In this document: one piece after another, positions 58,235 through 64,000 of the stretch | Numbering within the stretch: the stretch's first letter is position 1 | Layout: every line of letters begins with the position of its first letter | Source of the DNA: Cristatella mucedo | Lineage: Eukaryota > Bryozoa > Phylactolaemata > Cristatellidae | Assembly (NCBI GenBank): GCA_009760855.2 | Contig: WPIO01000082.1 | Span: 1,443,501-1,507,500, forward strand | Direction: 5' to 3' | Length of the DNA: 64,000 nucleotides | The notes under the pieces: model-generated | What the model was told of the DNA's origin: nothing | What the model saw: the letters and a program-made list of their open reading frames with translations, nothing else | Databases searched by the model: none | Made by a program: the position numbers and the translations under genes

Positions 58235-58575
58235 GCGAAACGGCATTACGTATTGAAGTTCAGTGGTAGATCTGAAGGCGGCTTAAACTCCAGGAATCCT
58301 TTGAGCAGGTGGACTCAGCTTCGCTAGCGTCAGCCCTTGAAAGGGAAACTGCTAGATCGTAAAATTGATTAGACAAGTGCAGTCACTGCCTAGTTAGCAG
58401 CGCGTCGTGCCGGTCGTCGACTTTATAAGCGATGGTTGTACCTTACCGACAAGCTTTTCCGTCCAATGTTCGCATTAATTTGCTATCGATCTCCTATATC
58501 TACTTCCCGCTGACGTCAAACACGGAATCTAATGTAAGCATGTTTGAAGCAATACGTATTTGAAAGAGACAACCA
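58235..58575 (+). other. Paralogous block, copy 1, part A (possible plus-strand 5' exon)
   Basis: Homologous to 61755-62100. Conserved features are an ATGG at 58432 with an in-frame reading to a donor-like |gtaagcat at 58534, and the block ACGTCAA(A/G)C(A/G) just before it. The 34 codons encoded differ from those of copy 2, so coding here is unproven. Confidence 0.4.
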
Positions 58576-58721
58576 AATGATTAAAGCGTAGTGGCTGAAC
58601 AGACGGTATGGATAAAGCTGGATAAAATGGGCATTTTGTGGCCGTAAATAATCACTTAGCTGTTATTTCATCCTCGCGTACATCAAACACTGAACAAAAT
58701 TTTAAAACAAGTAAGCCATTT

Positions 58722-59306
58722 TCAAAAGCAAGTGGGAAAAGTGAAAACATCCCAGGCGAGCTTTGACGAGGCGTGGACACGTAAGTGCATCGAGCCGTTA
58801 TCATCCACCAGCAGGCATTTTTTTAAATGGCGTATCATTACGCGGCCATCTGTGGGGTTCCTTGCGTAGGCGTCTTCCGCCCAGCTGGCTCTCTGCTCCG
58901 CTAACGGCACGACCTCTGGCCGCATGAGCGGCCTCTCAGAGCCCAGGTCGGTCCAAGGGGAAGACTGGGGGCTGGGGGCAGCTTTGGCCGGCGTGTGCCG
59001 CGGGCGATCGCAGTAGCAGGTCCGCAGCGACAGTGTTCGTTCTGCATCGGATATAGAGGCACCCAACTTGCTCGCACTAGCGGGAGCCGCCGGTTGACGA
59101 TCGAGGCTTCTCACAATCGCCGGAAGGGTGACTGGCGCTTGGAGAATATCTCGGTTGCTTCGCCGTCGACCGAAGGTCGCTCGGCGATGCTGTCGGCGTC
59201 GCAGTTCTGGGAGCGCTGAGAGCAGGGCGGCGGCGGAGTCCGTTTCGGTCTGGGCGACGGCGTACGGAATTAGCACGAAGCTGACGAAGAGCAGGCCATG
59301 CGTCAA
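58722..59306 (-). CDS. Uncharacterised secreted-type protein, copy 1 (likely decayed paralogue)
   Basis: Minus-strand ORF of 194 codons, not matched to any family I know. It starts with a signal-peptide-like segment (LLFVSFVLIPYAVAQ, then TETD) after LTH. An Arg-rich stretch follows with RRRQHRRATFGRRRSNRD, which contains dibasic sites and a Gly-Arg-Arg possible amidation site. The C-terminal half includes SPWTDLGSERPLMRP and EVVPLAEQRASWAED. Those blocks align with the 62461-63645 protein (LPA.V.S.D...PAA and DLG.E.P), with in-frame indels and synonymous changes, which supports minus-strand coding. Odd: no ATG exists between an in-frame TAA and the hydrophobic segment. The position of the copy-2 ATG is a Ser codon here, so the gene is either started from an upstream exon or dead. 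Confidence 0.5.
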   Translation of the reverse strand: MTHGLLFVSFVLIPYAVAQTETDSAAALLSALPELRRRQHRRATFGRRRSNRDILQAPVTLPAIVRSLDRQPAAPASASKLGASISDAERTLSLRTCYCDRPRHTPAKAAPSPQSSPWTDLGSERPLMRPEVVPLAEQRASWAEDAYARNPTDGRVMIRHLKKCLLVDDNGSMHLRVHASSKLAWDVFTFPTCF

Positions 59307-59453
59307 GTCGCGGTTGGAAAGAAAAGCAATTAACGAGGCAGCGCAATTGACAACGTCTCTTACTTAACCCCCTTTCATGACGAACCGCGGCGAGTACTGC
59401 CAATCCAGCCACGAAAGCCCGGATGTGGCGGCAGCCAGCAAAAACTCCCAATC

Positions 59454-59940
59454 TGAGAGAGAGAGAGAGAGAGAGAGAGAGAGAGAGAGAGAGAGAGAGA
59501 GAGAGAGAGAGAGAGAGAGAGAGAGAGAGAGAGAGAGAGAGAGAGAGAGAGAGAGAGAGAGAGAGAGAGAGACAGACAGAGACAGAGACAGAGAGACAGA
59601 GACAGAGACAGAGAGAGGGAGAGAGAGAGAGAGAATAAAAGAGTGAGAGAGAGGGAGAGAGAGAGAATAATAATAATAATAATGTACTTGATAAAGCGCC
59701 CTCAGAGAACTTAATCTCTTTCTAGGCGCTTTACATTTGCTGCAAAGGGAAGAGAGAGAGATGGAGAGAGAGAGGGAGAAAGAGAGAGAAAGAGAGAGAG
59801 AAAGAGAGAGAGAAAGAGAGAGAGAAAGAGAGAGAGAGAGAGAGATGGAGAGAGAGAGAGAGAGAGAGAGAGAGAGAGAGAGAGAGAGAGAGAGAGAGAG
59901 AGAGAGAGAGAGAGAGAGAGAGAAAGAGAGCTAGGTTTTC
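59454..59940 (+). repeat. Long (GA)n tract interrupted by a LINE tail
   Basis: Two arrays (59454-59666 and 59749-59930) with minor ACA and TGG interruptions, split by the LINE tail at 59667. It begins exactly where the paralogous copy 2 reads CAGTCTGGGAGA. After it, TCGGAGCGAC resumes the homology, so the tract is an expansion inside copy 1. Confidence 0.97.
59667..59748 (-). mobile_element. LINE 3' tail inserted in (GA)n
   Basis: (AAT)n, GTACTTGATAAAGCGCCCTC, CTTTCTAGGCGCTTTACATT and GCTGCAAAGGGAA, minus orientation. Well preserved, so rather recent. Confidence 0.88.
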
Positions 59941-62100: not shown

Positions 62101-62460
62101 AGAAAGTGAAATTAGTCGAGCGCACGCACCGGCAGCGGCTTAGCGGATATTGTGTGCGATACAGAAAAACGTGCGCGGCAATCCCGCTGCGGCCCGTCAG
62201 CAGTCGCTAAATTACGCAGCGACGTCCTCGAAAAATCTAAGCAGCAAAGTGAAGTGCAGGAGCATATCGGAACAAGGAAAGCCCTCCCCCCCCCCCCGGG
62301 GAAAGCCCCCGGGATGGCGCCTGTCGGACATCGAGCCCGAAAGCAGACACGCGCAGCCGGCGGAGTTACTGTACAGCGCGTCGTTCGGAGGCCTGCAGCG
62401 CGCCGCCTCCGTTGCTTGGCAGCGGCGGCAGCAGCAGCGTGTGAGAGCTCTGAGCTTCCT

Positions 62461-63645
62461 TCAGTTCTGGCCCAACTGCACGCTCCGCTGAGGATAAAAG
62501 GGAGGAGCGACCGGCGACAGCTCGCGCTTCGGCGTGACGCAATTCTGGCGGATCGAGGGGATGAACGGGGCAGCTGTGGCAGAAAGAACGTGTTCTTTTC
62601 TCGCCGCCGCCGACGACGCTGGCCGCAGCGAAGGCGGCGGCGCCGCCGGCGAAGTGGCAGCGCCGCGCGTCGCCGCGCGCTCTTCGTCAGAGCGGCCCGC
62701 CGTGGTAGCGAGAGGCGACGAAACCACTTCAAGATAAGCTTTCGGCTCGAAGCGGCTGGCCGCAGGAGCCGGCGTCTCAGCGCCGAGGTCGGCGAGCTGC
62801 AAGGGTGGCGTGACCGGGGCAGCTGCGGCCGCCGGCGCGCCGCCGCCGCCGCCGCCGCAGACGACCGCCGCAGTCGCCGGTCCGACGGGGCAGCGCAACG
62901 CGAAGTGCGACGGATGCGGCGGCTCTCCATCCGACTCGCTGTACTCGCTGTACCGCGGCTCTCCGTCCGACTCGCTGTACTCGCTGCTGCTGCTGACGAG
63001 AGCCGCCGGTCGATTATCGTCGCAGCTCTGCACGTTCGCTGGAAGAGGCGAACCGGAAGTGATCCTGGAAACTGTCCTGCGCTCCTCGTCGTCGTCGTCG
63101 TCGTCGGTGGAAGGATTCGGCTGCTCGGCGACTCCTCCCATTTCGGCGGTCGGCGGTGTCGCGACTCGCAGAGCGCGCGGCCCTGCGTGCGCGGCCGCTC
63201 GCGCGCCTGTTTCGCGCGCCGCTGCTCGCCCAGGCTCGACGCAGTCGCCGAACGCGGGGCGCATCGGAGGCGTGGCAGCGCAGCCAGGCGGGCCTTCGAC
63301 AGCCGCAGTCGGCGACTGCTCGGCGCCATTTTTTGGCGTCGCCAACAACTGGGGCTCGGTTTGTGCCGCTTCCTCAGACGCGTCGCTGTCATGCAGGGGC
63401 GCAAGTCTTACACCTCTCTCTCGTTTGTTGCAATTGTCCAGTGGCGTCCTGTCTCGGATCTCCTGCATCGGAGCGTTGCCATCTGGCAGAGGCGCCCATT
63501 CCGTCTCCCTTTCCAACGCCTCGCAGCTACTTAGCGTCGGGTCCGTTTCCGCTTTGTCCAGCGAGTTAGTGCTGTCCAGCAGCGGGTAGTTCCCTTCTTG
63601 CTTCGCGGTGTTGCAGCTATCCAGGGCGCTGCTGGGTGGTTGCAC
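62461..63645 (-). CDS. Uncharacterised Pro/Ala/Ser-rich repeat protein, copy 2 main exon
   Basis: A minus-strand frame open for about 394 codons (and a further ~50 upstream without ATG). Part 1 is an array of about seven degenerate 14-16-residue repeats, each ending in Pro (LLDSTNSLDKAETDP, LDNCNKRERGVRLAP). Part 2 is an Ala/Pro region, then an acidic DDDDDDEE. Next, SEYSESDGEP occurs twice. Then come GGGGGG, DLGAETPAPAA and a Ser/Pro-rich tail ending QLGQN. The part from GSPLPANVQSCDDNRPAAL on aligns with the copy-1 protein. Compared with the Arg-rich readings in other frames, this is the frame with plausible composition. GC content is very high, so absence of stops alone proves little. Function unknown. 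It probably needs a spliced 5' exon. Confidence 0.5.
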   Translation of the reverse strand: MQPPSSALDSCNTAKQEGNYPLLDSTNSLDKAETDPTLSSCEALERETEWAPLPDGNAPMQEIRDRTPLDNCNKRERGVRLAPLHDSDASEEAAQTEPQLLATPKNGAEQSPTAAVEGPPGCAATPPMRPAFGDCVEPGRAAARETGARAAAHAGPRALRVATPPTAEMGGVAEQPNPSTDDDDDDEERRTVSRITSGSPLPANVQSCDDNRPAALVSSSSEYSESDGEPRYSEYSESDGEPPHPSHFALRCPVGPATAAVVCGGGGGGAPAAAAAPVTPPLQLADLGAETPAPAASRFEPKAYLEVVSSPLATTAGRSDEERAATRGAATSPAAPPPSLRPASSAAARKEHVLSATAAPFIPSIRQNCVTPKRELSPVAPPFYPQRSVQLGQN

Positions 63646-63806
63646 GTAAGCGCCATTACAGGAAACAGTCGTCTCTGCTCTAACAGGCCTGCTGCTGCTG
63701 CCGACCGAGCGACGTTCGTTTCGGCCTGCGCGATATAGTAAAGAATTGGATCGTTGACGAGAGGGCTGTGCGTCAACCGGCTGTTGAAACGAAAAGCATT
63801 AAACAT
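63531..63806 (-). CDS. Candidate 5' coding exon of copy 2 (strong Kozak ATG)
   Basis: On the minus strand GCCGCCATG starts at 63806 and reads MFNAFRFNSRLTHSPLVNDP, then ILYYIAQAETNVARS. This is the positional equivalent of the copy-1 segment LTHGLLFVSFVLIPYAVAQT, with a 6-bp in-frame indel. It is in a different frame from the 62461-63645 ORF, so an intron or a frame change must join them. A GTAATG donor candidate near 63665 is one option. Less hydrophobic than copy 1. Confidence 0.4.
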   Translation of the reverse strand: MFNAFRFNSRLTHSPLVNDPILYYIAQAETNVARSAAAAGLLEQRRLFPVMALTCNHPAAPWIAATPRSKKGTTRCWTALTRWTKRKRTRR

Positions 63807-64000
63807 GGCGGCGCAAGCAGCAACGGCTCTTACTCGATCGCCTCTTTCGATTAACTGCGAAGAGTCCAAAAACTCCAGCCACGGCCAAGGTCGTGACAGC
63901 GACCACACCTGTGACGATTCCCAGTCTGGGAGACATTTACGCTTTTAATCTGCTTTGACTCGGAGCGACGAAGAGAAGCTCTCCGCAGATTTAGATTAAT
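63807..64000. other. 5' flank of the copy-2 minus-strand gene
   Basis: Homologous to 59365-59460 in copy 1 (blocks CTCCAGCCACG, TCCCAGTCTGGGAGA), then TCGGAGCGAC, which in copy 1 lies beyond the (GA)n tract. Promoter elements cannot be assigned. The window ends here. Confidence 0.45.

Follow-up and report, generated by a model that had tools for sequence, protein, structure and literature searches.

An old tandem duplication in Cristatella mucedo, with one decayed copy and one candidate gene carrying twin PAM2-like motifs

Introduction

Do two similar, neighbouring blocks of DNA represent a pair of genes, a gene beside the remains of another, or no gene at all? The question is raised by a 64,000-nucleotide stretch of the genome of the bryozoan Cristatella mucedo (contig WPIO01000082.1, positions 1,443,501 to 1,507,500; referred to as the window, in whose numbering all coordinates are given). 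Two of its blocks, A (58235-59460) and B (61755-63950), had been described in a first-pass annotation, made from the letters alone, as a tandem pair of paralogous minus-strand genes. We find that the tandem duplication of A and B is real and old, and we conclude that copy A is a pseudogene, whereas copy B, judging from its sequence, is a promising gene candidate with twin motifs resembling PAM2, a short ligand of the poly(A)-binding protein (PABP).

The two blocks are an old tandem duplication

Blocks A and B match each other in the same order and the same orientation, with an alignment score of 151.4, compared with 6.9 ± 3.5 (maximum 16.5) in 30 Markov-shuffled controls; this bears out the first-pass claims that the blocks align collinearly over several segments and that they are tandem paralogs. 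The best local piece pairs 59238-59413 with 63714-63883 at 68% identity (E 2e-11). When the blocks were divided according to the gene model presented below, the identity was 0.72 in exon 1, 0.73 in the intron and 0.68 in the 3' flank, while the value of 0.785 for exon 2 is inflated by large alignment gaps and is hence of no use as evidence. The 3' flank, in particular, is 68% identical over 505 aligned columns, and 71% identical over the 406 columns in locally well aligned stretches. No third copy of the block was found within the 64-kb window, where just two short matches of 20 and 22 nucleotides were seen (E 0.017-0.032), and tblastx revealed no further copy in it at E 0.01.

As to the immediate surroundings, the spacer between A and B contains fragments of long interspersed nuclear elements (LINEs) and long (AG)n runs, and a minisatellite with a 23-bp unit (CTGTAATAATTGCAGCAGGCTCG-like) adjoins copy A at 57820-58016. 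The last three 2-kb steps of the window (58001-64000) have an observed/expected CpG ratio of 0.98-1.29, compared with 0.50-0.96 in the remainder; such an elevated ratio is the pattern of an unmethylated promoter or gene-start region.

A two-exon model for copy B

Copy B was modeled as a gene of two exons on the minus strand, spanning 62461-63936 and encoding 455 residues. Its features, and those of the matching parts of copy A, are as follows.

63834..63936, minus strand: B exon 1 (sequence model), 103 nucleotides, phase 1, with an ATG at 63936 and a hydrophobic stretch; the predicted protein starts MSPRLGIVTGVVAVTTLAVAGVFGLFAVNRKRRS
63853..63921, minus strand: codons for the hydrophobic stretch (residues 6-28, approximately), after which comes NRKRR; the best 19-residue window begins at residue 10
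63726..63833, minus strand: B intron, 108 nucleotides, GTAAGAG...CGCGCAG, donor at 63833; donor and acceptor are both matched in A (GTAAGAG and CGCCCAG)
62461..63725, minus strand: B exon 2, in phase with exon 1, to the stop codon at 62461-62463 inclusive
63346..63630, minus strand: residues 67-161, made up of three repeat units some 31 residues long that share the pattern L-x-x-C ... PL-x-D ... L and were recognized by self-similarity
62557..62592, minus strand: PAM2-like motif 1, residues 413-424, HVLSATAAPFIP (core LSATAAPFIP), recognized by the residue rules in the available text of PMC2854688
62491..62526, minus strand: PAM2-like motif 2, residues 435-446, RELSPVAPPFYP (core LSPVAPPFYP), recognized by the same rules; Pfam family PF07145 scores below its cut-off
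61755..62460, minus strand: B 3' flank, perhaps a 3' untranslated region, aligned with about 58235-58750 of A
59364..59457, minus strand: A exon 1 remnant, with no ATG at the B start position, a (CT)n repeat reaching up to that position, and charged residues that break the hydrophobic stretch
59250..59363, minus strand: A intron remnant, 114 nucleotides, GTAAGAG...CGCCCAG, matching the B intron
58722..59249, minus strand: A exon 2 remnant, with a stop codon in the B frame at 59077-59079 and the frame shifted relative to B

In a first-exon search restricted to GTRAG donors and introns of 50-300 nucleotides, the sole combination of ATG and donor that joined exon 2 in frame was the one starting at 63936. 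Six in-frame AG acceptors are possible for the intron, among which the one at 63725 has a counterpart in A. The N-terminus of the model reaches a Kyte-Doolittle maximum of 2.26 over 19 residues, and a membrane anchor at this end is plausible, though not proven. B as a gene of about 400 codons, as initially proposed, retains its standing as a good candidate with the minus strand favored, but needs an additional 5' exon with an ATG and a short intron, making it 455 residues long rather than some 394. The two open reading frames (ORFs) of that proposal, with 194 codons in A (58722-59306, opening with TTG) and 394 codons in B (62461-63645, opening with GTG), do exist on the minus strand under bacterial start rules; the start of the A ORF, at 59306, falls inside the stretch that matches the B intron (59250-59363).

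ORF length was considered as proof of coding and rejected as weak, since at least 445 open codons were reached in 2.4% of 500 shuffles of this GC-rich block; moreover, four overlapping stop-to-stop frames of 283-472 codons are found here, the other strand included.

Twin motifs and internal repeats in copy B

PAM2 spans 12 residues and binds the MLLE domain of PABP, and the available text of the source (PMC2854688) gives the following residue rules: position 3 is hydrophobic, usually Leu; 4 is Asn, less often Ser; 5 is Pro or Val, occasionally Thr; 7 is an invariant Ala; Glu is preferred at 9; 10 is an invariant Phe; and 12 is usually Pro. In keeping with these rules (PMC2854688), both B motifs have Leu 3, Ser 4, Ala 7, Phe 10 and Pro 12. 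A six-frame search of the 64 kb for the pattern L[NS]..A..F.P gave two matches, both of them in the B ORF and 22 residues apart, and the stop codon follows nine residues past the second. Sixty shuffled whole windows contained a mean of 0.3 matches and no close pair; Markov shuffling of the block, repeated 2000 times, yielded at least one match in 16 cases but never a close pair; and 20000 residue shuffles of the B protein produced one match in 17 instances and two in none. It is to be noted that the two motifs share six identical residues, five of which are encoded by differing synonymous codons.

The repeats constitute a second signal in the same chain. Comparison of the first and third repeats gave a score of 49, which was reached in 0 of 2000 shuffles; P was 0.0005 for the second and third, and 0.026 for the first and second. 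A self-similarity analysis of the six frames of 63250-63725, run free of preset repeat boundaries with 300 shuffles each, singled out the model frame (P 0.013), the others ranging from 0.11 to 0.56. When the repeats and the motif pair were evaluated jointly, the protein similarity in the model frame was 124, compared with 15.4 ± 20.3 (maximum 88) in 5000 column shuffles, all of which it exceeded.

Searches for known families and relatives

The first-pass annotation had recognized no known family in either block, and indeed no family scored above cut-off in Pfam for the B ORF, the full B model or the A ORF, or in NCBIfam for the B model; what had escaped it was the pair of PAM2-like motifs in B. 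Among solved structures, the A and B ORFs matched nothing below E 0.6, and a 53-residue B tail had no match. Two weak similarities were judged to be due to chance and discarded, one between Phage_holin_3_6 and residues 1-65 of the B model (E 0.078, 13.5 of the 28.4 bits needed), the other between DUF7196 and the ORF of the opposite strand (E 0.34, below cut-off). When viral and genome contig collections were searched for relatives of the ORF in B exon 2, 600 and 592 stretches fitted the search pattern and none was confirmed by tblastn; since both collections are non-animal, this is a weak negative.

Decay of copy A and lack of constraint between the copies

The first-pass proposal of two genes rested in part on synonymous third-position changes and in-frame indels between the blocks. 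In the B frame, the ratio of nonsynonymous to synonymous divergence (dN/dS) between A and B came to 1.05 when 134 codon pairs were compared, a 135th being left out due to a stop codon in A, and the aligned parts thus show no constraint on B; the shifted frames yielded 0.86 and 1.13. Gaps divisible by three numbered 14 of 45 in the exons, which is the share that chance would give. Differences at codon positions 1, 2 and 3 amounted to 10/29, 8/30 and 7/29 in exon 1, and 33/143, 31/146 and 27/135 in exon 2, with no excess at third positions in either exon. The individual synonymous examples cited earlier may each be correct, yet they form no overall pattern. Because of the dN/dS and the gap lengths unrelated to three, the reading of A and B as two constrained paralogous genes is rejected. 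The first-pass annotation had itself named a dN/dS near 1, together with a lack of transcripts, as grounds for refutation, and the first half of this was found.

Copy A, furthermore, lacks the start codon, the frame and the hydrophobic helix of B. The hydropathy maximum of its exon 1 remnant is 1.52, compared with 2.26 in B; its segment matching LPANVQSCDD sits in a different frame; and the pattern L[NS]..A..F.P has no match in it. It is because of the missing ATG, the broken hydrophobic stretch, the in-frame stop, the frame shift and the absence of the PAM2 pattern that we concluded A to be a pseudogene. As its intron remnant retains both GTAAGAG and CGCCCAG, the intron is probably older than the duplication.

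A possible membrane tether for mRNA

The interpretation that we prefer, to which we would give almost an even chance, is that a two-exon ancestor was duplicated, that copy A decayed, and that B encodes a membrane-anchored protein that binds PABP through its MLLE domain and thereby tethers messenger ribonucleoproteins (mRNPs). The ancestral gene would have lain on the minus strand, with the copy at the lower coordinates becoming the pseudogene. If B is expressed and spliced as modeled, its hydrophobic helix, followed by RKRR, would act as an N-terminal signal anchor and insert into a membrane, with the remainder of the protein staying in the cytosol. According to the positive-inside rule, basic residues on the tail side of an anchor keep the tail in the cytosol, which is where PABP is found; the order of anchor and basic residues in B would therefore predict a cytosolic tail. 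This tail would be of low complexity, with the three repeats, acidic stretches and the two C-terminal PAM2-like motifs, and the latter could bind the MLLE domain of cytoplasmic PABP, thus recruiting polyadenylated mRNPs to the membrane in question, perhaps that of the endoplasmic reticulum or the outer one of mitochondria.

An animal protein of this kind would unite an integral membrane anchor with PABP-binding motifs and could hold poly(A) mRNA directly at a membrane; the locus would then also illustrate how, after an old tandem duplication, a long open frame and its motifs persisted in one copy while the other decayed. That B should be an undescribed integral-membrane mRNA tether of animals, with a single N-terminal helix in an organelle membrane, twin non-overlapping PAM2 motifs at a free C-terminus that catch PABP-coated poly(A) tails, no RNA-binding domain and a role in membrane-localized translation, is a narrower proposition that we consider rather doubtful. 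No integral-membrane PAM2 protein was seen in titles and abstract beginnings on PAM2 with membrane or mitochondria, although these were mostly of non-subscription papers and are no proof of absence.

Evidence against the tether and alternative explanations

Besides the dN/dS value, several observations weigh against the tether. By the PAM2 rules quoted above, as far as the available text states them, motif 2 deviates at position 9 (Pro, not Glu), and motif 1 at both 5 (Ala) and 9 (Pro). The Pfam PAM2 profile (PF07145) scored 12.4-12.5 bits (E 0.12-0.13), under its curated cut-off of 20 bits. When each motif was compared with Pfam in a 33-residue piece of its own, neither piece had a match (the motif-1 piece having one wrong first residue). 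The looser pattern L...A..F.P had eight matches in the window, where shuffled sequence averaged 2.1; those outside B, six in number, are single, in stretches of 26-121 codons, one of them spanning a stop. At the proposed start, the ATG is directly preceded by a stop codon and has T at -3, both of which make for a poor start context, and a hydropathy of at least 2.26 occurred in 7 of the 91 candidate ATG-to-GTRAG first exons of the window (B included, and three of the seven being simple repeat). At the opposite end, the closest minus-strand AATAAA, at 60429, lies some 2 kb beyond the B stop. Codon usage, referred to 254 codons from exon pieces of the neighboring PDZ gene described below, was 0.047 for the model frame and 0.054 for an opposite-strand frame, so that the frame is not singled out, and the first and third repeats scored 41 in an opposite-strand frame and 60 in the model frame, with 13 identities in each. 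Lastly, the composition of the B protein sits on the boundary of disorder, and the repeat pairs and the motif pattern were chosen post hoc, with the sequence in view. Due to the PF07145 score, B has not been assigned to the PAM2 family, although, from its sequence, it may well act like a member.

The alternative that survives best, though we regard it as rather unlikely, is that the duplicated DNA of the two blocks is noncoding or decayed, the B open frame being a by-product of GC-richness and the motifs and repeats coincidental. It would account for the dN/dS of 1.05 and the gap lengths, for the similar identity of intron (73%), exon 1 (72%) and 3' flank (68%), and for the long open frames of the opposite strand, the shuffles reaching 445 codons and the unselective codon usage; it is opposed by the close motif pair, absent from all 2000 shuffles, by repeats confined to one of six frames, by the synonymous codon differences at conserved residues, and by a phase-compatible splice pair, the sites of which occur in both copies.

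It is quite unlikely, in our view, that B is a real gene for a membrane or secreted low-complexity protein with no role in mRNA tethering, its motifs being either fortuitous or destined for an MLLE domain outside PABP, for instance the one in the ubiquitin ligase UBR5. The occurrence of the motif in two copies that preserve the key residues but differ at silent sites argues against such a reading, whereas the sub-threshold Pfam score and the non-consensus position 9 argue for it; the hydrophobic exon could also be a secretory signal, which would place the tail outside the cytosol.

A hydrophobic N-terminus that gives way to basic residues and then to a long tail of low complexity would also suit the beginning of a larger gene, such as one for an AKAP1-like mitochondrial RNA scaffold, with its other exons elsewhere or missed, but we deem this very improbable, given the stop codon nine residues past motif 2 and the lack of a KH or Tudor domain by Pfam in the B ORF and the full model, the minus strand below 62461 not having been scanned exon by exon. 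That A and B are copies of a transposable element is scarcely credible in spite of the LINE fragments in the spacer and surroundings, as the window contains no other copy, the scanned ORFs of A and B have no transposon domain known to Pfam, and no relative of B exon 2 was confirmed in the viral and genome contig collections, the latter being a weak argument on account of their non-animal content.

Other features of the window

The B candidate is located past the end of a multi-PDZ gene on the plus strand (10868-51855), with which it is convergent. PDZ exons of this gene were found near 10.9, 47.5 and 51.4 kb, and one at 42.9 kb fell just under the Pfam cut-off. The last of them (51424-51855) had Multiple PDZ domain protein (MPDZ), 2fne, as its best single-stretch structure match (E 4e-33), while chains of Disks large homolog 4, matched in two or three stretches, obtained a higher total score than 2fne.

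A LINE reverse transcriptase ORF (RVT_1) occupies 20018-21211, and members of the family are distributed as follows.

5803-6271, 7628-8293, 19782-21211, 46849-47622, 59666-59750, 60580-60693 and 60859-61107: LINE family copies and 3' ends

A 220-bp unit is repeated head to tail at 55378-55817 with 99% identity and represents a recent tandem duplication. The open frame at 34187-34723 resembles by eye a Ty3/gypsy-type pol fragment, and Pfam assigned it to no family. No RNA gene was detected when the whole window was searched with 4227 Rfam families at gathering thresholds.

Comparison with known systems

The B motifs share with those of PABP partners such as Paip2, eRF3/GSPT1, Tob, ataxin-2, PAN3 and LARP4 their short length and the combination of Leu 3, Asn or Ser 4, Ala 7, Phe 10 and Pro 12, as the available text describes it (PMC2854688). 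By the same account, eRF3 resembles B in having two PAM2 sites, although those of eRF3 overlap and those of B are separate (PMC2854688). B differs from these partners in its Pro 9 in place of Glu, in its N-terminal hydrophobic stretch, and in having no other Pfam domain above cut-off.

In its predicted architecture, the B model would resemble AKAP1, TOM20 and TOM70, in which an N-terminal hydrophobic anchor is followed by basic residues; it differs from them in that no KH, Tudor or TPR domain was found in it by Pfam. We know of no PAM2 motif in AKAP1, for which no search was made. The available portion of one source states that AKAP1 mediates the association of mRNA with the outer mitochondrial membrane, and also describes Upa2 of Ustilago maydis as a multi-PAM2 protein, such that several PAM2 motifs in one protein are already known (PMC12852828).

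Upa1 of the same fungus is an endosomal FYVE adaptor that connects mRNPs to endosomes and has, besides one PAM2 motif, two PAM2-like ones; the accessible text reports that its PAM2-Pab1 contact is dispensable whereas the PAM2-like motifs are crucial (PMC4466420). Unlike B, it reaches the membrane via the lipid-binding FYVE domain, and it has a RING domain and ankyrin repeats in addition; Pfam found none of the three in the B model. Nonetheless, Upa1 as described there combines membrane association with several PAM2 and PAM2-like motifs, as B would, and thus offers a precedent in logic, though not in homology.

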